Shown: positions 8,031-18,235, counted from the stretch's first letter. The stretch: 64,000 nt of DNA from Aminomonas paucivorans DSM 12260 (GCF_000165795.1 NZ_CM001022.1:434001-498000); one strand, 5' to 3'. Program-made: numbers and translations. The notes: generated by a model not told the origin, from the sequence alone.

Positions 8031-10019
8031 ATGAATTTGTTCGACATGCGGACCGTGGTCCTCACCAGCGCCGCCATCGTCTTCGTCTGTTCGCTCCTGC
8101 TGCTGATGCTTTGGAGGCAGAACCGCGGAAGGTTCTCCGGGATGGGACTGTGGGCCGGAGGGTTTGCCGCAGTGGCCGTCGGTTTTTGCCTTTTGTTCCT
8201 GCGCGGGATCATCCCGAACGCCGCCTCCATCCTCCTCGCAAACGTGGTCATCATGTCGGGTGCCCTCATGACCCTCGTCGGGACGGACCGGTTCCTTGGA
8301 CGAAGGGGGGGACACCTCCACAACGTCGTCCTCCTCGGCGTCTTTGCCGTCCTGTTCGCCCGGTACTCCCTCGTCCAGGACCACCTTCCGGCGAGGACCG
8401 CTCTCGTCTCCGTCCTGATGACCCTCTTCACCGCCCAGGGGGCCTGGCGCCTCCTCGTCTCCATCGGTCCGGAGGTCCGCCGCTGGACCTTCCTGACCGG
8501 GTCGGTCTACGGAGCGTTCGCCCTGATCAACATCGTGAGGCTGGTGCGGATCACCTCGGGGGCCGATGCGTCGTGGGGGGACTTCTTCGCGGCGAACGGC
8601 TTCGAGACCCTCATCGTCTTCCTGTACCAGCTCCTGTCGATCCTCCTGACCTACAGCCTCACGCTCATGGTGACCCGGAGGCTGCTGCTCGACGTGCGCG
8701 CTCAGGAGGAAAAGTTCTCCCGGGCGTTCCGCTCCGCCCCCTACGTCCTCACCCTCGCGCGTCTCTCCGACGGTCTCATCCGGGAGGTCAACGAAGGCTT
8801 CGTGGGCATCACGGGATACGCCTACGACGAAGCGGTCGGGAGAACCTTCTCCGAACTGGGGCTCTGGGCCGTCGAATCGGACCGTCGTGCCGTCGTCGAA
8901 GCCCTGGTGAAGACCGGAAGCGTCCGCGATCGGGAGTACCCGTTCCGCCTGCGCTCCGGAGAGACGATGCTGGGGGCGCTCTCCTCGGACACCCTCGAGA
9001 TCGGCGGCGAAACCTGCGTCCTGTCGAGCATCACCGACGTCACGGACCGTCGGCGCATGGAGGACGCCCTCCGGGAGAGCGAGGAGAAATTCCGGTATAT
9101 GGCGGAGCATTCGAGCGACACCATCTGGCATACCGACGCGGAGTGTCGTTTCACCTACGTCAGCCCCGCAGACGAACGGATGCGCGGTTTTACGCAGGAC
9201 GAAGTGGTCGGAACCACCGTCTGGAGCCTGCTCAAGCCGGAGGGGGTCGAACACGTCAGGCGTCTGAGCGCCCAGTACGCCGCCGAGGGCCGGACGGACG
9301 CCGGAACGGGAGCCCTGCGATACGAACTGGAGCTGATCTGCAAGGACGGGACCTGGCTCTGGACGGAGGTCAACGTGGTCCCGCACCGCGACGGAGTGGG
9401 AAAACTCGTCGGCTACCACGGCGTGACGCGGGACATCTCGGAGCGTAAACGCACCGCCGAGCGCATGGAACACCTGGCCCGGCACGACCCGCTCACCGAC
9501 CTGCCCAACCGGGCGCTCTTCTTCGACCGCCTCGACGTGGCCCTTGCCCTCTCGAAACGGAACGGGACGCGGCTTGCGCTGATGTTCGTGGACCTCGACC
9601 GATTCAAACCGGTCAACGACACCTTCGGCCACGCGGTGGGGGATGTCCTTTTGAGGGAGGCTGCGGGGCGCATGAGGGCCTGCATCCGTGGGTCCGACAC
9701 CGTGGGACGCATCGGCGGGGACGAGTTCGTGGTGCTCCTTCCTGCCGTCGAGACGCAGAAGGCCCCCCTCGTGGTCGCCGAAAAGCTGCGCAGGGCGCTG
9801 GCCCGTCCCTTCGAGATCGACGGACGCCGGATCGGGATCTCCTGCAGCATCGGTATCGCCATCGCCCCGGACGACGGGTGCGACCCCATCGAACTCGCGA
9901 AGAATGCCGACATGGCGATGTACCTCGCCAAGCAGCAGGGGGGCGACGCCGTTCGGTTCTTCGGGTCGCAGGCCGAGGCTCCCCGGGTTACCGAAAAGGC
10001 TTTGCCCCGGGAGACGTAA
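8031..10019 (+). CDS. PAS-domain diguanylate cyclase with membrane-embedded N-terminus
   Basis: A 662-residue protein. Six or seven hydrophobic segments occupy about residues 8-215, followed by two PAS domains (about 225-345 and 350-470; the second ends with a PAC-type GYHGVTRDISERKR), then a GGDEF domain. The active-site GGDEF is intact and RGSD lies five residues before it, matching the RxxD product-inhibition site, so an active, feedback-inhibited cyclase is expected. Codon choice (GTC/CTC rather than GTG/CTG) differs from its neighbours, suggesting recent acquisition. The stop codon lies exactly in the loop of a long perfect hairpin. It has no close partner except the upstream HD-GYP gene. 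Confidence 0.92.
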   Translation: MNLFDMRTVVLTSAAIVFVCSLLLLMLWRQNRGRFSGMGLWAGGFAAVAVGFCLLFLRGIIPNAASILLANVVIMSGALMTLVGTDRFLGRRGGHLHNVVLLGVFAVLFARYSLVQDHLPARTALVSVLMTLFTAQGAWRLLVSIGPEVRRWTFLTGSVYGAFALINIVRLVRITSGADASWGDFFAANGFETLIVFLYQLLSILLTYSLTLMVTRRLLLDVRAQEEKFSRAFRSAPYVLTLARLSDGLIREVNEGFVGITGYAYDEAVGRTFSELGLWAVESDRRAVVEALVKTGSVRDREYPFRLRSGETMLGALSSDTLEIGGETCVLSSITDVTDRRRMEDALRESEEKFRYMAEHSSDTIWHTDAECRFTYVSPADERMRGFTQDEVVGTTVWSLLKPEGVEHVRRLSAQYAAEGRTDAGTGALRYELELICKDGTWLWTEVNVVPHRDGVGKLVGYHGVTRDISERKRTAERMEHLARHDPLTDLPNRALFFDRLDVALALSKRNGTRLALMFVDLDRFKPVNDTFGHAVGDVLLREAAGRMRACIRGSDTVGRIGGDEFVVLLPAVETQKAPLVVAEKLRRALARPFEIDGRRIGISCSIGIAIAPDDGCDPIELAKNADMAMYLAKQQGGDAVRFFGSQAEAPRVTEKALPRET

Positions 10020-10040
10020 CGTCTCCCGGGGCAAAGCCTT
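9996..10040. repeat. 21-bp perfect inverted repeat centred on the cyclase stop codon
   Basis: Arms 9996-10016 and 10020-10040 are exact reverse complements and the three-base loop is the TAA stop codon of the upstream gene. No T-run follows on the plus strand; on the minus strand the stem is followed by TTCGG after CCTT. It lies between convergent genes and is most simply a bidirectional terminator, but its length and perfection are unusual. Confidence 0.8.
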
Positions 10041-10088
10041 GGCTCCGTTCCGGGGAGCCCGCTTCCCAGAGCCTTTCGCCCTGATCCG

Positions 10089-11405
10089 CTAGGGCCTTCC
10101 GATGGCGTAGTAGGCGAAGCCCCGGCGGCGCAGCTCCGGGCCGGAGTACTGGTTGCGCCCGTCGAAGACCGCCTTCTCCCGGAGCTTCTGCCCCACCAGG
10201 CGGAAGTCCGGCTGCTTGTACAGATCCCACTCCGTCACCAGCACCAGCCCGTCCGCCCCCTCCAGGGCCTCGTAGTGATCCGTCAGGAAGGCCAGGCCGG
10301 GCCGGTTTCCCAGGAGCCGCCGGGCCTCCTCCAGGGCCACCGGGTCGTGGAGGCGCAGGGAGGCCCCCGCCCCCAAGAGGTCCTGGATCAGCACCAGGGA
10401 GGAGGCCTCCCGCAGGTCCGAGGTGTTGGGCTTGAAGGAGAGGCCCCAGAGGGCCAGGACGCGCCCCCCCAGCTCACCCCCGAAGTGCCGCAGGATCTTC
10501 TGGAAGAGCACGTGCTTCTGCGCCTCGTTCACGTCCTCCACCGCCTGGAGGATCCGGGGGGAGTAGCCCTTCTGGAGGGCGGTGTGTCTCAGGGCCCGCA
10601 CGTCCTTGGGGAAGCAGGAGCCTCCGTAGCCGCACCCGGGGGAAATGAAGGCGTAGCCGATGCGTCCGTCGGACCCGATGCCCAGACGGACCTTCTCCAC
10701 GTCCGCGTCCACCAGCTCGCAGATCCGGGCCATCTCGTTCATGAAGGAGATCTTGGTGGCCAGGAGGGCGTTGGCGGCGTACTTGGTCATCTCCGCGGAG
10801 CGGATGTCCATGAAGAGAACCTTCTCCTGGGGGAGGAAGGAGTACAGCTCCCGCAGGGTCTCCTCCGCCTCCGGGGCGTCCGCCCCCACCACCACCCGGT
10901 CGGGGTGGAGGAAGTCCGCCACCGCCGCCCCCTCCCGGAGAAACTCGGGGTTGGAGGCCACGGAGAAGGGGATTCCCGCCCCCCGGGCCTCCAGGGCTCG
11001 GGCCACGCAGTGGCGCACCCGGTCGGCGGTGCCCACGGGGACGGTGGACTTGGTGACCACCACCGAGGGGCCCTCCAGGGCCGCACCGATCTGTTCCGCC
11101 ACCTCCAGGACGTACTGGAGGTCCGCGCTGCCGTCCACGTCCGAGGGGGTCCCCACGGTGATGAAGCAGACCCGGGCATCCCGGACCGCCTCGGGGAGGG
11201 CGGTGGTGAAGGCCAGGCGCCCTGCCCGCTGGTTCGAGAGGATCACGTCCCCCAGTCCCGGTTCGTAGAAGGGGACCGTCCCCTCCTGGAGCCCTCGGAT
11301 CTTCTCCTCGTCCACGTCCACGCAGGTCACCCGGTTGCCGAAGCCCGCCAGGCAGGCTCCGGTGACGAGGCCCACGTATCCTGTGCCGATCACGGCGATG
11401 CGCAT
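10089..11405 (-). CDS. ugd: UDP-glucose 6-dehydrogenase
   Basis: A 438-residue NAD-dependent dehydrogenase converting UDP-glucose to UDP-glucuronate, the first step toward UDP-L-Ara4N. The N-terminus has the Rossmann motif GTGYVGLVTGACLAGFG; the centre has the family block TKISFMNEMARIC and the catalytic cysteine in CGYGGSCFPKD; the C-terminal nucleotide-binding domain has GLSFKPNTSDLREA. Length is normal. It is the last gene of the arn operon, 34 bp after arnD, and supplies the operon's substrate. The reading frame ends shortly before the hairpin at 9996-10040. Confidence 0.96.
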   Translation of the reverse strand: MRIAVIGTGYVGLVTGACLAGFGNRVTCVDVDEEKIRGLQEGTVPFYEPGLGDVILSNQRAGRLAFTTALPEAVRDARVCFITVGTPSDVDGSADLQYVLEVAEQIGAALEGPSVVVTKSTVPVGTADRVRHCVARALEARGAGIPFSVASNPEFLREGAAVADFLHPDRVVVGADAPEAEETLRELYSFLPQEKVLFMDIRSAEMTKYAANALLATKISFMNEMARICELVDADVEKVRLGIGSDGRIGYAFISPGCGYGGSCFPKDVRALRHTALQKGYSPRILQAVEDVNEAQKHVLFQKILRHFGGELGGRVLALWGLSFKPNTSDLREASSLVLIQDLLGAGASLRLHDPVALEEARRLLGNRPGLAFLTDHYEALEGADGLVLVTEWDLYKQPDFRLVGQKLREKAVFDGRNQYSGPELRRRGFAYYAIGRP

Positions 11406-11439
11406 GTCCTTCCTCCTCCGTTTCGGGAGCCCGAAAGCC

Positions 11440-12354
11440 TCAGGCCGCCGGTTCCTCCTCGATGATCTGGGTGGCCACCCGTCCCGCCCGGCCCTCGATG
11501 GGGCACATCCTCACGGGGCACACCGGCAGGGTCTCCGGGTCCAGGGCCTGGGCCACCGTGGACAGGGGGACGCAGCGCACCCCCTGGTCCCGGGCCCGGG
11601 TCAGGAACTCCCGGAACACCCCCAGCTGGCCCATCCCCTCCATCTCCCCGTGGAGGGTGAAGACGTTCAGCCCTTCCCGAAGCAGCCCCAGGAGGTGCTC
11701 CGCCAGCCGGGAGCCCTCCAGACCGCCCCGTCCCAGGACCTCGTCCATGGTGGGGAGGGTGGAGGGGATCTGGGGGGTCCGGAAGACCTTGTTCCCCCAT
11801 CGGGGCAGGAAGGGGAAGGCCCCCCGGGTGTCGCTGCAGTAGTCCAGCTTCAGCTCCTCCTGGACCCGGAGGCTCTCCTCCGTGACCTGCCAGCCCGGGG
11901 CGGCGCAGGCTCGGGCCGCCTTGCCGGTGCGCTGGGAGAACAGGTCGAAGGCCCGGCGGAAGTCCGCTTCCAGGGTGGTGACGGGAAGCTTGGGGAGCCG
12001 GTCCTGCCACTTCACGTGGTCCCAGGCGTGCACCCCGCAGTCGTGTCCCTTCCGCGCCGCGTCCCGGAGGATCCCCGGGGCGGATTCCACGATCAGAGGG
12101 GCGGGGAGCAGCGTCCCGTAGAGCAGGGTGCGCCAGCCGTAGGTGGACACGGCGCTGGTGCGGCGCATCTTCTCCAGGAACCCCGGGCGGAAGACCCGCA
12201 CCAGGGCCTTCCCGGAATTGTCCGGTCCCATGCTGAAGAAGAAGCTGGCCTTCACGGACAGCTCCTCCAGCAGCCCCAGGAGGTTGGGGACCCCTTCCCG
12301 GTAGCCCCGCAGCGTGTCCACGTCCACCTTCAGGCCCAGGATCTTCACGGCCAT
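11440..12354 (-). CDS. arnD: ArnD deformylase (undecaprenyl-P-Ara4FN)
   Basis: A 304-residue polysaccharide-deacetylase-fold enzyme of the ArnD type, which removes the formyl group from undecaprenyl-phosphate-L-Ara4FN on the inner membrane. LKVDVDTLRGYREGVP at the start holds the metal/catalytic Asp, followed by VHAWDHVKWQD, ACAAPGWQVTEESL and late FTLHGEMEG, all matching ArnD. Its ATG follows the preceding stop directly (TGAATG), so translation is probably coupled. The Cys-rich tail (PVCPVRMCPIEG) is somewhat longer than expected from the core fold. Confidence 0.92.
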   Translation of the reverse strand: MAVKILGLKVDVDTLRGYREGVPNLLGLLEELSVKASFFFSMGPDNSGKALVRVFRPGFLEKMRRTSAVSTYGWRTLLYGTLLPAPLIVESAPGILRDAARKGHDCGVHAWDHVKWQDRLPKLPVTTLEADFRRAFDLFSQRTGKAARACAAPGWQVTEESLRVQEELKLDYCSDTRGAFPFLPRWGNKVFRTPQIPSTLPTMDEVLGRGGLEGSRLAEHLLGLLREGLNVFTLHGEMEGMGQLGVFREFLTRARDQGVRCVPLSTVAQALDPETLPVCPVRMCPIEGRAGRVATQIIEEEPAA

Positions 12355-13374
12355 TCACCCCTGGTTCAGGTAGAAATGCACCGTGCGCTCCAGGGTCTGT
12401 CGCAGGGGGCGCGTCGCCTCCCAGCCCAGCAGCTCCTTGGCCTTGCGCACGCTGGGCCGCCGGTCCCGCACATCCTGGTAGCCCGTCCCGTAGTACTCCG
12501 TCGCGGGGACCTCGGTCAGGGGAACCGACGCCGTGTCCTCCTGTCCCGGCTGGGCCGCCAGGACCTCTCGCAGCAGCTCCGCCACCTCCCGGATGGAGTG
12601 GTTGTTCCGGGGGTTGCCCAGGTTGAAGATCTGCCCGTTCGCCGCCTCGGGCTGACGGAGGATGGCCAGGAGGCCTTCGATGCCGTCGTCGATGTCCGTG
12701 AAGCTGCGCCGTTGGGCGCCCCCGTCCACCAGGACCAGGGGGCGACGGCGCAGCAGGTTCCCCAGGAGCTGGGGCACCAGGCGGTTGTCGTTCCCCTCCG
12801 GGCGGAGGGGGTCGTCCTGCCTCGGGCCGATCCAGTTGAAGGGCCGGAAGAGGGTGTAGGGCAACCCCTTCTGGGCTCCCAGGGCGGCGATGACCCGGTC
12901 CATCATCTGCTTGCTGCAGCTGTAGATCCACCGGGACTTGCCGATGGGGCCCTGCACCAGGATGCTGTGGTCCTCGTCCAGCTCCTCGTCGGGGCTCATG
13001 CCGTAGACCTCCGAGGTGGAGGGGAAGACCACCCGGGTGCGGGTCTCGGCGCAGCGCCGCACCACCCGCAGGTTCTCCTCGAAGTCCAGCTCGAAGATCA
13101 GCAGGGGGTTTTCGATGTACACCGCCGGGCGGGCGATCCCCGCCAGGGGCACCACCGCGTCCGCCGCCTCCACCTCCCGGTCGATCCAGTCCCAGGAGTT
13201 CCCCATGGTGTCCTTGCGGAAGGAGAACCGGGGGTTGCCCAGGCAGGCCCCCAGGTTGGAGTCTCCCGGGTCCAGGGCCGTCACGGTCCAGTCCGTCTCC
13301 GCCAGGATCTTCTCGCAGAGGAAGCTGCCGATGAAGCCGTTGGCCCCCAGGATCAGCACGTTCATGTCCCTCAT
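12355..13374 (-). CDS. arnA: UDP-glucuronate oxidative decarboxylase (ArnA C-terminal-type)
   Basis: A 339-residue extended SDR that oxidises and decarboxylates UDP-glucuronate to UDP-4-keto-arabinose, the step done by the C-terminal half of E. coli ArnA. It has GANGFIGSFLCE for NAD binding, PSTSEVYGM with the catalytic Ser, YSCSKQMMDR with the Tyr/Lys pair, FNWIGPRQDD, and RRSFTDIDDG carrying the conserved Arg. In enterobacteria this domain is fused to the formyltransferase; here the two are separate neighbouring genes, 31 bp apart. Two in-frame ATGs (13374 and 13365) are possible starts; neither has a clearly better ribosome site. Confidence 0.93.
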   Translation of the reverse strand: MRDMNVLILGANGFIGSFLCEKILAETDWTVTALDPGDSNLGACLGNPRFSFRKDTMGNSWDWIDREVEAADAVVPLAGIARPAVYIENPLLIFELDFEENLRVVRRCAETRTRVVFPSTSEVYGMSPDEELDEDHSILVQGPIGKSRWIYSCSKQMMDRVIAALGAQKGLPYTLFRPFNWIGPRQDDPLRPEGNDNRLVPQLLGNLLRRRPLVLVDGGAQRRSFTDIDDGIEGLLAILRQPEAANGQIFNLGNPRNNHSIREVAELLREVLAAQPGQEDTASVPLTEVPATEYYGTGYQDVRDRRPSVRKAKELLGWEATRPLRQTLERTVHFYLNQG

Positions 13375-13404
13375 CCTTTCTTCCGGCGTCCCGTCCCTTG
13401 CGGG

Positions 13405-14325
13405 CTAGGACAGCCGCGCCCCCGGCGTCAGGCCGGGCATGGCCTCGTCCTCCCGGGCCCCCTCCTCCTGCACCTCCAGGAGCCGCAGGGCCCCGGAGCC
13501 ACAGCGCACCCGAAGACCCCCCTCCGGGTCCTCGAAGCAGGTCCCGGGGGGCACCGACGGCTGCCCCGCCTCCGGCAGGGGCCAGGCCTTCCAGACGAAG
13601 AGCTTTCGGTTCCCCAGGAAGGCGAAGGCTCCCGGGTAGGGGCGGGTCACCGCCCGGACCAGATGGTACAGGCCCAGGGCGTCGCCGGTCCAGTCCAGCC
13701 GCCCGTCCGCGGGGGTGCGTCGGCCGAAGGTGGTGGCCCGGGCCTCGTCCTGGGGGGTGCGGGGGGCCCGACCCTGCGCCAGGAGGGGATAGGAGCGCCG
13801 CACCACCCGCACCGCTGCGTCCGTCACCCGGCGGAACACCTCCAGGGAGGTGTCCTCGAAGAGGATGGGCACCGATTCCTGGTCGATCAGGTCCCCCCCG
13901 TCGGGGCGGGGGGTCATGACGTGGAGGGTGGCCCCGGTGCGGGTCTCCCCGCGGATCACCGCCCAGTGGATCGGCACCCGGCCCCGGTACCGGGGCAGCA
14001 GGGAGCCGTGGAGGTTGTAGGCCCCCAGGGGGGGCAGGGCCAGCAGGTCCGCCCCCAGCAGGTCCCGGTAGTAGAAGGACAGCAGCAGGTCGGGCCTGAG
14101 GCTTCGGGCCAGGGCGATCCCTCCGGGGGAGGCCAGGCTCTCCGTGGACACGGGGATTCCCGCCGCCTCCGCGACCGGGGCGGGGGTGCGGAACCACCGG
14201 TTCTCCTTCGGGTCGTCCCGGTGGGTGAAGAGGCCCACCACGTTTGCCCCCAGGTCCAGCAGGGCCTCCAGGCAGGCCGTCCCCACCTCGCTGTAGCCGC
14301 ACACCAGCACCCGAGGGGCGGTCAC
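13405..14325 (-). CDS. arnA: UDP-L-Ara4N formyltransferase (ArnA N-terminal-type)
   Basis: A 306-residue formyltransferase that transfers a formyl group from N10-formyl-THF to UDP-L-Ara4N. It has YNLHGSLLPRYRGRVPIHWA, with the Asn and His of the active site, GATLHVMTPRPDGGDLIDQE with the catalytic Asp, and a C-terminal OB-like domain (RAVTRPYPGAFAFLG). The GTG start overlaps the arnC stop (GTGA) and has AAGGAG eight bases before it; the frame stays open far upstream but that sequence is arnC in another frame. It equals the N-terminal half of bifunctional ArnA. Confidence 0.9.
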   Translation of the reverse strand: MTAPRVLVCGYSEVGTACLEALLDLGANVVGLFTHRDDPKENRWFRTPAPVAEAAGIPVSTESLASPGGIALARSLRPDLLLSFYYRDLLGADLLALPPLGAYNLHGSLLPRYRGRVPIHWAVIRGETRTGATLHVMTPRPDGGDLIDQESVPILFEDTSLEVFRRVTDAAVRVVRRSYPLLAQGRAPRTPQDEARATTFGRRTPADGRLDWTGDALGLYHLVRAVTRPYPGAFAFLGNRKLFVWKAWPLPEAGQPSVPPGTCFEDPEGGLRVRCGSGALRLLEVQEEGAREDEAMPGLTPGARLS

Positions 14326-15278
14326 GGCCGGGACTCCTTCTCCGGACCCTCCGGGTAGAGGCGCCGCACCAGGTAGCGGGGGCGCTGGCGAACCTCCAGG
14401 TAGATGCGCCCCACGTACTCCCCGGAGATGCCGATGCCGAAGAGGAGCACCCCCAGGAGGAAGAAGTTCAGGGCCATGAGGGTGAAGAGCCCCTCCGCCT
14501 CCGCCCCCACCAGCAGGCGGCGCAGCACCAGGAAGAGGCCGAAGAGGACGCTCAGGGCCGACACCAGCAGGCCCATGAGGGTCACCGCCTGGAGGGGCAC
14601 CAGGGAGAACCCCGTCATGAGGTCGAAGTTCAGCCGCACGAGCCGGTAGAGGCCGTACTTGGAGGTGCCGTGCTCCCGCTCCGCGTGCCCCACGGGGATG
14701 TCCACGGGGGACTGGGCGAACTTCTGGGCCAGGGCGGGGAGGAAGGTGGTGGTCTCCCGACACTGGTTGATCAGGTCCACGATGCGCCGGTCGTAGCCCC
14801 GGAGCATGCAGCCGTAGTCCTGGATGGCCAGGCCGGTGATGCGGTTGGAGATGCGGTTCACCACCTTGGAGGCGAGTTTCCGGAAGAGGGGGTCCCGGCG
14901 TCCCACCCGGTGGGTGCCCACCACGTCGTGCCCCCCGTCCATCTGCTCCAGCAGCCGGGGGATCTCCTCCGGGGGGTTCTGGAGGTCCGCGTCCAGGGTG
15001 AGGACCTTCTCTCCCCGGGCGTGGGCGAACCCCGCCAGAATGGCCATGTGCTGGCCGAAGTTCCCGTTGAAGTCGATGAGGCGCACGTAGGGGTGGTCCT
15101 GCACCGCCCGGACCAGCAGGGGCAGGGAGGCGTCCCGGCTGCCGTCGTTGATGAACACCACCTCGCAGGACCGTCCCAGCCCCTCCACCACCGGGAAGAG
15201 GCGGTCGAAGAGGGCGGGGAGGCTCTCCTGCTCGTTGTACACCGGGATGACCAGGGAGACCTCCGGGGAGGGGGTCAT
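14322..15278 (-). CDS. arnC: ArnC glycosyltransferase (Ara4FN to undecaprenyl-P)
   Basis: A 318-residue GT2 glycosyltransferase. The N-terminal GT-A domain has VSLVIPVYNEQESLP, FINDGSRD and TLDADLQNPPEEIP (metal-binding DAD), and NGNFGQHMAI typical of ArnC. Two C-terminal membrane helices (about 232-258 and 267-293) end in ISGEYVGRIYLEVRQRPRY, characteristic of polyprenyl-phosphate transferases. It moves L-Ara4FN from UDP to undecaprenyl phosphate at the inner membrane. It overlaps arnB upstream (ATGA) and the formyltransferase downstream (GTGA). Confidence 0.93.
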   Translation of the reverse strand: MTPSPEVSLVIPVYNEQESLPALFDRLFPVVEGLGRSCEVVFINDGSRDASLPLLVRAVQDHPYVRLIDFNGNFGQHMAILAGFAHARGEKVLTLDADLQNPPEEIPRLLEQMDGGHDVVGTHRVGRRDPLFRKLASKVVNRISNRITGLAIQDYGCMLRGYDRRIVDLINQCRETTTFLPALAQKFAQSPVDIPVGHAEREHGTSKYGLYRLVRLNFDLMTGFSLVPLQAVTLMGLLVSALSVLFGLFLVLRRLLVGAEAEGLFTLMALNFFLLGVLLFGIGISGEYVGRIYLEVRQRPRYLVRRLYPEGPEKESRP

Positions 15279-16447
15279 CGGGCCTCCGGGGCGGCGCAGA
15301 CCTCCCGTACCGCCTCCACCACGTCCTCCACGTCCCGGTCCGTCATGTCCGGGAAGAGGGGGAGGGAGACGAGGCGGTCCGAAACCCGGGCGGCCTGGGG
15401 GAAGTCCTCCCGGGCCCAGCCGAAGCGCTCCCGGTAGTACCGGTGCAGGTGCACCGCCTTGTAGTGCAGCGCCGTGCCGATGTTCCTCTCCTTCAGGCGG
15501 GCCATGAAGGTGTCCCGGTCGAAACCCAGGGCGTCCACGTCCACCAGGGGGCAGTACAGGTGCCGCCCGTGCACGTGTTCGTAGGAGGGGGAGCCGAGGG
15601 GCAGGATGCCCCGCTGTCCCCGGAAGGCCTCGTCGTACCGCGCGGCGATCTCCTCCCGCCGCCCCTGGAACCGGTCCAGCTTGTCCAGCTGGTGCAGGCC
15701 GATGGCCGCCTGAAGGTCCAGCATGTTGTCCTTGAAGCCCAGCATGATGACCTCGTACTGGGGGGTCCCCGCCTCGGCGTAGCGGTTCCAGGCCCCCTTG
15801 GACATGCCGTGCTGCCGCAGCACGGACACGCGCTCCCCCAGGTCCTCGTCCCCCGTCACCACCATGCCCCCCTCCCCGGTGGTGATGTTCTTGGTGGGGT
15901 GGAAGCTGAAGACCCCCAGGGGCGCGGGGTTCTGCCCCACCGGTTCCCCCTTGTAGGAGGCCCCCAGGGCGTGGGCGCAGTCCTCCACCAGGGCCGCTCC
16001 CGTGTGCTTCGCCAGGTCCCGGAAGGCGTCCAGGTCCACGGGGAGCCCCGCGAAGTGCACCGGCACGATGGCCTTGGTGCGGGGGGTGCAGGCCCGTTCC
16101 GCCGCCCCCGGGTCCAGGTTCAGGGTGGCCGGGTCGATGTCCGCCAGCACCGGGGTGGCCCCGGTGAAGAGGATGGCGTTCACCGTGGCGGCGAAGGTCA
16201 TGGGGGTGGTGACCACCTCGTCCCCCGGTCCCACCCCCAGGGCCACCAGGGACAGGTGCAGCCCCGCGGTGGCGGAGTTCACCCCCAGGGCGTAGGGGAC
16301 CCCCAGGCGGGCGGCGAAGGCCTTCTCGAAGGCGGCGGTTCGGGGTCCCGTGGTGATCCAGCCGGACCGCAGGACCTCCGTTACCTCCCGGATCTCCTCC
16401 TCCCCCAGGGAGGGACGGGAGAAGGGCAAAAAGGTGGATCGGCTCAT
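15275..16447 (-). CDS. arnB: ArnB aminotransferase (UDP-Ara4O to UDP-L-Ara4N)
   Basis: A 390-residue PLP-dependent DegT/DnrJ/EryC1-family aminotransferase. FSRPSLGEEEI and LRSGWITTGPRTAAFE begin the protein, EDCAHALGA contributes the Asp that contacts the cofactor, and the Schiff-base Lys is in GVFSFHPTKNITTGEGG. In this operon it should transaminate UDP-4-keto-arabinose from glutamate. The start is the ATG overlapping the arnT stop (ATGA at 16444-16447); the frame extends upstream into arnT in a different frame. Other sugar aminotransferases look similar, but context makes ArnB secure. Confidence 0.93.
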   Translation of the reverse strand: MSRSTFLPFSRPSLGEEEIREVTEVLRSGWITTGPRTAAFEKAFAARLGVPYALGVNSATAGLHLSLVALGVGPGDEVVTTPMTFAATVNAILFTGATPVLADIDPATLNLDPGAAERACTPRTKAIVPVHFAGLPVDLDAFRDLAKHTGAALVEDCAHALGASYKGEPVGQNPAPLGVFSFHPTKNITTGEGGMVVTGDEDLGERVSVLRQHGMSKGAWNRYAEAGTPQYEVIMLGFKDNMLDLQAAIGLHQLDKLDRFQGRREEIAARYDEAFRGQRGILPLGSPSYEHVHGRHLYCPLVDVDALGFDRDTFMARLKERNIGTALHYKAVHLHRYYRERFGWAREDFPQAARVSDRLVSLPLFPDMTDRDVEDVVEAVREVCAAPEAR

Positions 16448-18153
16448 GGCAGCGCCTCCGTTTTCTGATTGGTCACCACGGTCTTGCCGTAGTAGAGGGG
16501 GTCGGAGCCCAGGACGCGGAAGGTCAGCCCCATCCGCCGGAACTCCTCCAGTTTCTCCGGGTCCGCCACGGCGAGGACGGGTTTGGGTCCCCGCCAGATC
16601 CGGGCGAACTCCTCCGGGGTCACGAACCAGTCCGGGTTCTCCGCCCTCTGGCCGAAGGAGAGTTCCCCGAAGCCCCCCGGATCGTTCACCAGGGTGATGC
16701 GGCGCTTCAGGTAGAAGGCCAGGCCCTGGTCGTAGTCCCGATAGTCCGCCACCACCGCGTCCGGGGTGGCGTGTCGGGCCACGATGGCCGCCACTCCCTT
16801 GGCGGAGCGGATCTGGCCGTAGAAGTCGAACAGCCCCTTGAAGGTTATCCCCATGGCGAGGGATCCGAGGCACAGCAGCAGCACCGCCCCACCGATCTTC
16901 CTCCGGAGCCCCGCAAGGAAGGGGAGGATGCCCACCGCCCCCAGCACCGCCGCCAGGGGGAGAGACACGGGGGCCAGCACCTCCGGGGCGAACCGGTCCT
17001 GGTGGTGGGGGTACAGCAGCAGCGTCGCCCCCAGGAGGAGGCAGACCGCCCCGTTCCCCGCCAGGCCCCAGAGGAGTCTTCTTCGGTCCTGGTCCGCCAG
17101 GATCCGGTCCAGAGCGGTTCCCGCCAGCACTCCCAGAGGGGGGAAGACCGGCAGGATGTAGGGCACCAGCTTGGACTTGGAGACGGAGAAGAACAGCAGC
17201 ACCACTCCCGCCCAGAGGAGCAGGAAGAGGGCCTCCTCCCCGGGGCCCGCGGGGGCCTCGTCGTCCTCCCGGAGGCGACGGTCCGCCCCCAGGCTCCGCA
17301 GGGCGGCCAGGCCGTCCCGGAGGCCCTGCAGGAGGTTTCCCGTCCAGGGCAGGAAGCCCAGCAGCAGGATGGGCAGGAAGAACCAGCCGGGCTGGTACCG
17401 GTTGGCGTTCAGGGTGGCGTAGCGCAGGAAGTGCTCATGGACGAAGAAAAACCAGGCGAAGTCCGGGTTGCGGAGCATCACCAGGGCGAACCAGGGTCCC
17501 GCCAGGGCGAGGAAGACCAGGATCCCGGGGAGGGAGAAGGCCCGCCAGAGGAGAGACCAGCGCCTCGTCCCCAGGGCCCAGGCCACCCCCACCATCCCCG
17601 GCAGCACGACTCCGATGAGCCCCTTGGTGAGCAGCGCCAGGGCCATGCCCGCGTACCCCGCCAGCAGCCAGCGCCGGTTCCCCGTCACCCCCCGGTAGAG
17701 GCCGTAGAAGGCCAGGGTGAGGAAGGTCGCCAGGGCCATGTCCGTGAGGGTGATGTGGGCCAGGGCGAACCACACCAGGGAGGTCCCCACCATGAGACCG
17801 GAGAGGAAGGCCCCCCGGGGCCCGTGGGGGGCCGCGGCGACGTAGGTCAGCGCCGCCCCCCCCAGGGCGGACAGGGCGGGGACGGCTCGGGCCGCCAGCT
17901 CCGTCTCCCCCAGGGTCCGAAGGGAAAGGGCGCTCATCCAGTAGTAGAGCACGGGCTTCTCGAAGTACTTCACCCCGTTGAGCCTCGGGGTGACCCAGTC
18001 CCCCGTGGCCAGCATCTCCCGGGGGATCTCGCTGTATCGGCCCTCGTCGGGCTCCAGAAGGCCGTGGTCCCCGAGTCTCCAGAAATAGAGGAGGCCCAGG
18101 AGGGCCAGGAGGAGGGCGAAGGGCCGGGCGTGGCTGCGGAAGAATCCGTTCAT
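16444..18153 (-). CDS. arnT: ArnT lipid A L-Ara4N transferase
   Basis: A 569-residue polytopic membrane glycosyltransferase of the PMT/GT83 type with about 12 membrane helices. The first periplasmic loop has [18 protein letters not shown] with the catalytic acidic residue and [16 protein letters not shown], both ArnT signatures. It moves L-Ara4N from undecaprenyl phosphate to lipid A phosphates on the periplasmic side, reducing negative charge and polymyxin binding. It is the first gene of the operon, 45 bp after the predicted transcription start; in E. coli arnT is fifth. Confidence 0.94.
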
Positions 18154-18205
18154 GGGGGTCCCCGTCCTTTCCTTTATCGTTCCTTCGGTGGCTTCACCGT
18201 GGCCG

Positions 18206-18235
18206 GTTATACCGTTCCCCGGGCCGCACCGTCAA
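18206..18235 (-). promoter_or_regulatory. Promoter of the arn operon
   Basis: Minus strand TTGACG (18230-18235), an 18-bp spacer and TATAAC (18206-18211); predicted start near 18199. The strong match suggests a fair basal level without an activator. I saw no clear direct repeat of the PmrA type beside it. Confidence 0.75.

Follow-up and report, generated by a model that had tools for sequence, protein, structure and literature searches.

The seven-gene cluster described here most probably encodes (at a probability of roughly 0.8, judged from sequence) a conventional pathway with split ArnA for the modification of lipid A with L-Ara4N, in which the gene for the carrier that flips Und-P-L-Ara4N would lie outside the operon. 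Both the split ArnA and the gene order are already known, and the question is narrowed to which carrier flips Und-P-L-Ara4N in the Aminomonas–Thermanaerovibrio clade.

The window analysed, a stretch of 64,000 nucleotides, corresponds to positions 434001–498000 of the 2,630,170-base single contig of Aminomonas paucivorans DSM 12260. Seven ORFs follow one another on its minus strand between 10089 and 18153, in the order arnT-arnB-arnC-formyltransferase-decarboxylase-arnD-ugd, with intergenic gaps from arnT to ugd of −4, −4, −4, 30, 0, and 34 bp. This tight spacing (4-bp overlaps and gaps of at most 34 bp) is consistent with a single transcript, so the seven genes are likely expressed together. 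The genes and their flanking signals are the following, in the direction of transcription:

18206–18235, minus strand: putative promoter-like site, detected by eye about 50 bp upstream of arnT (TTGACG at 18235–18230, an 18-nt spacer, and TATAAC at 18211–18206)
16444–18153, minus strand: arnT, L-Ara4N lipid A transferase, GT-C, 569 aa (NF009784, E 2.6e-68)
15275–16447, minus strand: arnB, UDP-Ara4O aminotransferase, 390 aa (NF008658, E 2.1e-135, under its cut-off)
14322–15278, minus strand: arnC, Und-P Ara4FN transferase, 318 aa (NF007986, E 7e-103, under its cut-off)
13405–14325, minus strand: stand-alone UDP-Ara4N formyltransferase (ArnA N-terminal half), 306 aa, GTG start (NF005414, PRK06988)
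12355–13374, minus strand: stand-alone UDP-GlcA decarboxylase (ArnA C-terminal half), 339 aa (NF008872, PRK11908)
11440–12354, minus strand: arnD, Und-P-Ara4FN deformylase, 304 aa (NF011923, E 2.3e-77, under its cut-off)
10089–11405, minus strand: ugd, UDP-glucose 6-dehydrogenase, 438 aa (436 bits with TIGR03026, where the cut-off is 190)
about 9995–10042, minus strand: terminator-like hairpin after ugd, with perfect arms of ~20 bp followed by TTTT

The TTGACG-18-TATAAC site upstream of arnT was not listed by a scan for consensus promoters and is kept as a lead only; the position at which the sequence-only reading ended the operon, 18235, is the first base of its −35-like TTGACG. The hairpin 3' of ugd showed a fold energy of −45.5 kcal/mol (z −7.9); since the structure is symmetric, it may act for the convergent GGDEF gene (8031–10019) as well.

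Families were assigned by comparison with NCBIfam models, Pfam (for ArnT), and solved structures. Both halves of the split ArnA scored above the curated cut-offs set for NCBIfam models of the stand-alone proteins, the formyltransferase with 347 bits against NF005414 (cut-off 316) and the decarboxylase with 440 bits against NF008872 (cut-off 294). The two of them also matched the ArnA structure, the former (E 2e-63) with NLHGSLLP and the D of RPDGGDLI aligned, and the latter (E 1e-96) with STSEVYGM, YSxSKQ, and GYQDVxxRxPS aligned, whereas the ugd product additionally matched the TuaD model (E 4.6e-140). ArnT reached 231 bits against NF009784, under the 567-bit equivalog cut-off, but carries Arnt_C (PF18583) above cut-off, and the only solved structures that it matched were those of ArnT itself (5ezm/5f15), with 5ezm at E 4.6e-74 and HEH and one further motif aligned. 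The best structural matches of the remaining proteins were 1mdo for ArnB (E 1.5e-111, with the lysine in FSFHPTKNIT aligned), 9bhc/8vxh for ArnC (E 3e-95), and 8t0j for ArnD (E 2.3e-61, with DVDTLRG and HAWDH aligned). The motifs aligned in these Arn proteins are the catalytic ones. Scores of ArnT, ArnB, ArnC, and ArnD below equivalog cut-offs based on Enterobacteria are expected at such a distance, and the substrate specificities assigned here are predicted ones. With the seven ORFs intact, and with families and motifs in agreement, the sequence-only reading was borne out in that the L-Ara4N operon is complete, has its ArnA split, and has arnT in first place.

From family membership and the aligned catalytic motifs, the following route can be proposed. 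Ugd would produce UDP-GlcA, which the decarboxylase would convert into UDP-Ara4O, and ArnB would aminate the latter; the separate formyltransferase would N-formylate the ArnB product, ArnC would load the formylated sugar on Und-P, and ArnD would deformylate the Und-P-linked sugar. The Und-P-L-Ara4N so formed would be flipped in trans by a carrier encoded outside the operon, and ArnT would finally transfer L-Ara4N to lipid A. The most likely outcome is synthesis of L-Ara4N and its placement on lipid A, the flipping step being carried out in trans. The polymyxin tolerance put forward in the sequence-only reading keeps the status of a prediction. For Synergistetes, LPS biosynthesis genes but also an atypical outer membrane have been reported (PMC5738826). 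A literature search yielded nothing usable on polymyxin in Synergistota or on an arn pathway without arnE.

The absence of an ArnE/ArnF gene from the operon was confirmed, as the gap between arnD and ugd is only 34 bp and holds no SMR gene; a search for SMR genes across the window saw none either. The extension of this absence to the whole lineage was wrong for the family, because most of the Synergistaceae relatives examined that have the operon carry an ArnE/F-like SMR gene between arnD and ugd (ORFs of 122–137 aa, or more where the start could not be placed with certainty), and the claim of a missing flippase stands for a small clade, A. paucivorans and three Thermanaerovibrio-type genomes. 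The SMR gene is divergent from arnT in some other families and lies between arnT and arnB in several Proteobacteria and Nitrospirae. In all the arn-linked SMRs of Synergistota, Asn stands where the central Glu would be, a substitution that lipid-type SMRs often show (PMC9574504).

Operons without a linked SMR gene were found in A. paucivorans, in the three Thermanaerovibrio-type genomes, and in several other Synergistota groups. Two of the Thermanaerovibrio-type genomes are single-contig; the three are G002 (1,848,474 bases, matching T. acidaminovorans), G022 (1,880,838 bases, matching T. velox), and G032. Their operons and that of A. paucivorans share an MCP-arn neighbourhood, and the four genomes form a clade with a support of 1.0 in a concatenated ArnC/F/A/D tree, the neighbour of which is another SMR-less group (0.83). 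No SMR was detected in the three Thermanaerovibrio-type genomes at E <= 1e-5, 0.1, or 0.5, the last threshold returning only EamA frames of ~300 aa, although these searches may have overlooked an SMR of very divergent sequence. GtrA was sought in A. paucivorans and in the three genomes and none was found, nor was any conserved extra gene found beside the SMR-less operons. The gene that follows ugd in Thermanaerovibrio was discarded as such a gene; it looks by eye like a thiamine transporter (ThiT-like), and another part of the window encodes a homologue of it.

The flippase puzzle was to disappear if ArnE/F were found elsewhere in the genome. An SMR gene does exist, at 2228637–2228981, but it belongs to a different conserved cassette, and the Thermanaerovibrio-type relatives lack any, so the puzzle was only partly removed. 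This gene, 1.78 Mb away from the operon, encodes the only lipid-type SMR of the A. paucivorans genome, a protein of 114 aa with four TM segments (by eye and homology). The cassette, SMR-GT2-large membrane protein-GT2, spans L022:502–4981 (about 2224501–2228980 in A. paucivorans) and is also found at L226:6065–10870 in G041, a genome of another family. Its large membrane protein has 696 or 710 aa; the 696-aa copy of A. paucivorans gave no Pfam match and is putatively GT-C-like, and the whole cassette is possibly a three-component system for glycosylation from an Und-P-sugar.

Other matches were rejected. The SMR at 2290237–2290512 has a strong Multi_Drug_Res match and the central Glu, and was read as cation/guanidinium-type rather than lipid-type. 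Weak matches to the ArnE model at 508017, 644656, and 651881 fall on the opposite strand of transposase gene copies, and another at 948962 is antisense of a flagellar gene. A transposase-like ORF of about 344–358 aa is present in several near-identical copies near 503–513 kb and 640–656 kb (L019:4585–5661 and L020). Another genome, G017, has two neighbouring SMR-like genes that may form a pair of the ArnE/ArnF kind (L221:6182–6834); they lie away from the arn operon of that genome, and the pair occurs a second time, in inverted orientation, on the contig that carries it.

The simplest explanation, with nothing new needed, would be that the SMR at 2228637–2228981 flips Und-P-L-Ara4N in trans as a homodimer. 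Its match to PF00893 (26.6 bits) exceeds the cut-off and marks it as a genuine SMR, Asn replaces the central Glu, as is often the case in lipid-type SMRs (PMC9574504), and the protein falls in the Synergistota lipid-SMR group (0.85). In addition, Burkholderia uses a single ArnE/F homologue (PMC7835334), and a somewhat broad specificity has been reported for the ArnE/F flippase of Salmonella (review, PMC9574504). However, it pairs (0.99) with the SMR of the same cassette in G041, to which it is 50% identical, so that its first job is probably with another Und-P-sugar. Its identity to the arn-linked SMRs of Synergistota is only about 29–38%, and these SMRs, 27 in number, grouped without it (0.81), which speaks against orthology. 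As the Thermanaerovibrio-type genomes have the same operon and no gene like it, this explanation is possible but on the whole unlikely. The lack of both SMR and GtrA in these relatives makes a carrier of another family a likelier solution for the clade than the distant SMR, and we would give it about an even chance; that ArnE/F has been replaced in this clade by an Und-P-L-Ara4N carrier from outside both the SMR and the GtrA families is proposed tentatively, as somewhat short of probable.

As to which family this could be, a 10-TM EamA-type DMT carrier (1886659–1887537) has orthologues about 51% identical in Thermanaerovibrio and is one of four EamA carriers common to A. paucivorans and the three Thermanaerovibrio-type genomes. 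EamA and SMR proteins are members of one superfamily (PMC9574504). Among the same-family genomes searched, it was detected only in these four, and among arn-positive genomes it was present in 8 of the 14 without an in-operon SMR against 3 of the 23 with SMR (Fisher 0.008, a value that ignores shared ancestry and refers to a candidate chosen after its presence in the clade had been seen). On the other hand, the gene is unlinked to arn, with a neighbour upstream that looks by eye like a GntR-type regulator; it is found in two genomes with no arnA match (G045 and G054) and in three with SMR (G040, G049, and G057), and it is missing from six genomes without an in-operon SMR. EamA carriers, moreover, mostly export small metabolites. 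A second EamA group showed no such distribution, and a single-EamA match at 690123 was dismissed as a RarD-like two-domain protein. A replacement of the SMR flippase by the carrier at 1886659–1887537 is consequently a weak candidate, and very improbable. A MATE/Wzx-type or other carrier would fit with the absence of both SMR and GtrA from the Thermanaerovibrio-type genomes, and MATE-family carriers have been proposed for Und-P-pentofuranose donors (PMC11127046), but no conserved extra gene was seen near the SMR-less operons, and we regard this option as a minor one, below an even chance by a good distance. Finally, the pathway could be decaying, or L-Ara4N might not be exported in the Aminomonas–Thermanaerovibrio clade, as could be argued from an operon devoid of a flippase gene and from the broken frame of the decarboxylase in T. 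velox. Against this, the A. paucivorans ORFs are all intact and keep their catalytic motifs, and the operon is retained in 4/4 genomes of the clade, which makes decay or lack of export highly doubtful. The T. velox frameshift breaks ArnA-C at L074:7998–9000 and could represent either a sequence error or a decaying gene; the relatives have intact copies of the decarboxylase gene.

The preferred reading, a working L-Ara4N pathway with flipping in trans, bears on a group in which this operon is common, the Synergistota. The flippase gene is its least fixed part: it can occupy the arnD–ugd or the arnT–arnB interval, be divergent from arnT, or be unlinked to the operon. The small Thermanaerovibrio-type genomes, with the pathway and without detectable SMR or GtrA, offer a practical place to seek an unrecognised Und-P-sugar flippase.

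Compared with known systems, the split ArnA and the gene order, which the sequence-only reading had singled out, are unremarkable, as both correspond to the Burkholderia arrangement (PMC7835334) and recur widely. In the arn loci of Burkholderia thailandensis (BTH_I2189–2196), arnB and arnC are followed by two ArnA genes and then arnD, and a second operon holds arnT together with the single ArnE/F homologue, BTH_I2194 (PMC7835334). A. paucivorans shares with this species two adjacent ArnA genes, the B-C-A-A-D order, and the presence of arnT, but its arnT heads the same operon, ugd comes last, and no SMR gene is linked. The order T-B-C-F-A-D, or parts of it, was also found in Geobacter, Opitutae, Nitrospirae, Pectinatus, Proteobacteria, and other Synergistota, among 80 loci of other genomes recruited through the decarboxylase. 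Three loci of family f3 (L085, L087, and L088) have a different order, C-F-D-B-A-T, and no SMR above EamA-type matches was detected in their genomes. The T-B-C-F-A(-D) clusters of Geobacter/Geomonas and Opitutae (L132, L153, L159, L140, and L149) are alike in order, in split ArnA, and in that no SMR was seen nearby, but ugd is unlinked there; an SMR-like protein is encoded away from the arn cluster in the three Geobacter-type genomes searched. Closer relatives among the Synergistaceae (e.g., L065, L069, L070, L072, and L077) have the same T-B-C-F-A-D-ugd arrangement on one strand, and differ in the SMR ORF of 122–137 aa that occupies the place of the 34-bp gap of A. paucivorans. The arnBCADTEF operon of E. 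coli and Salmonella covers, by family, the same enzymatic steps, with a fused ArnA, arnT after arnD, ArnE/ArnF in the operon, and ugd elsewhere, whereas in A. paucivorans, ArnA is split, ArnE/ArnF are not in the operon, arnT comes first, and ugd forms part of the operon.
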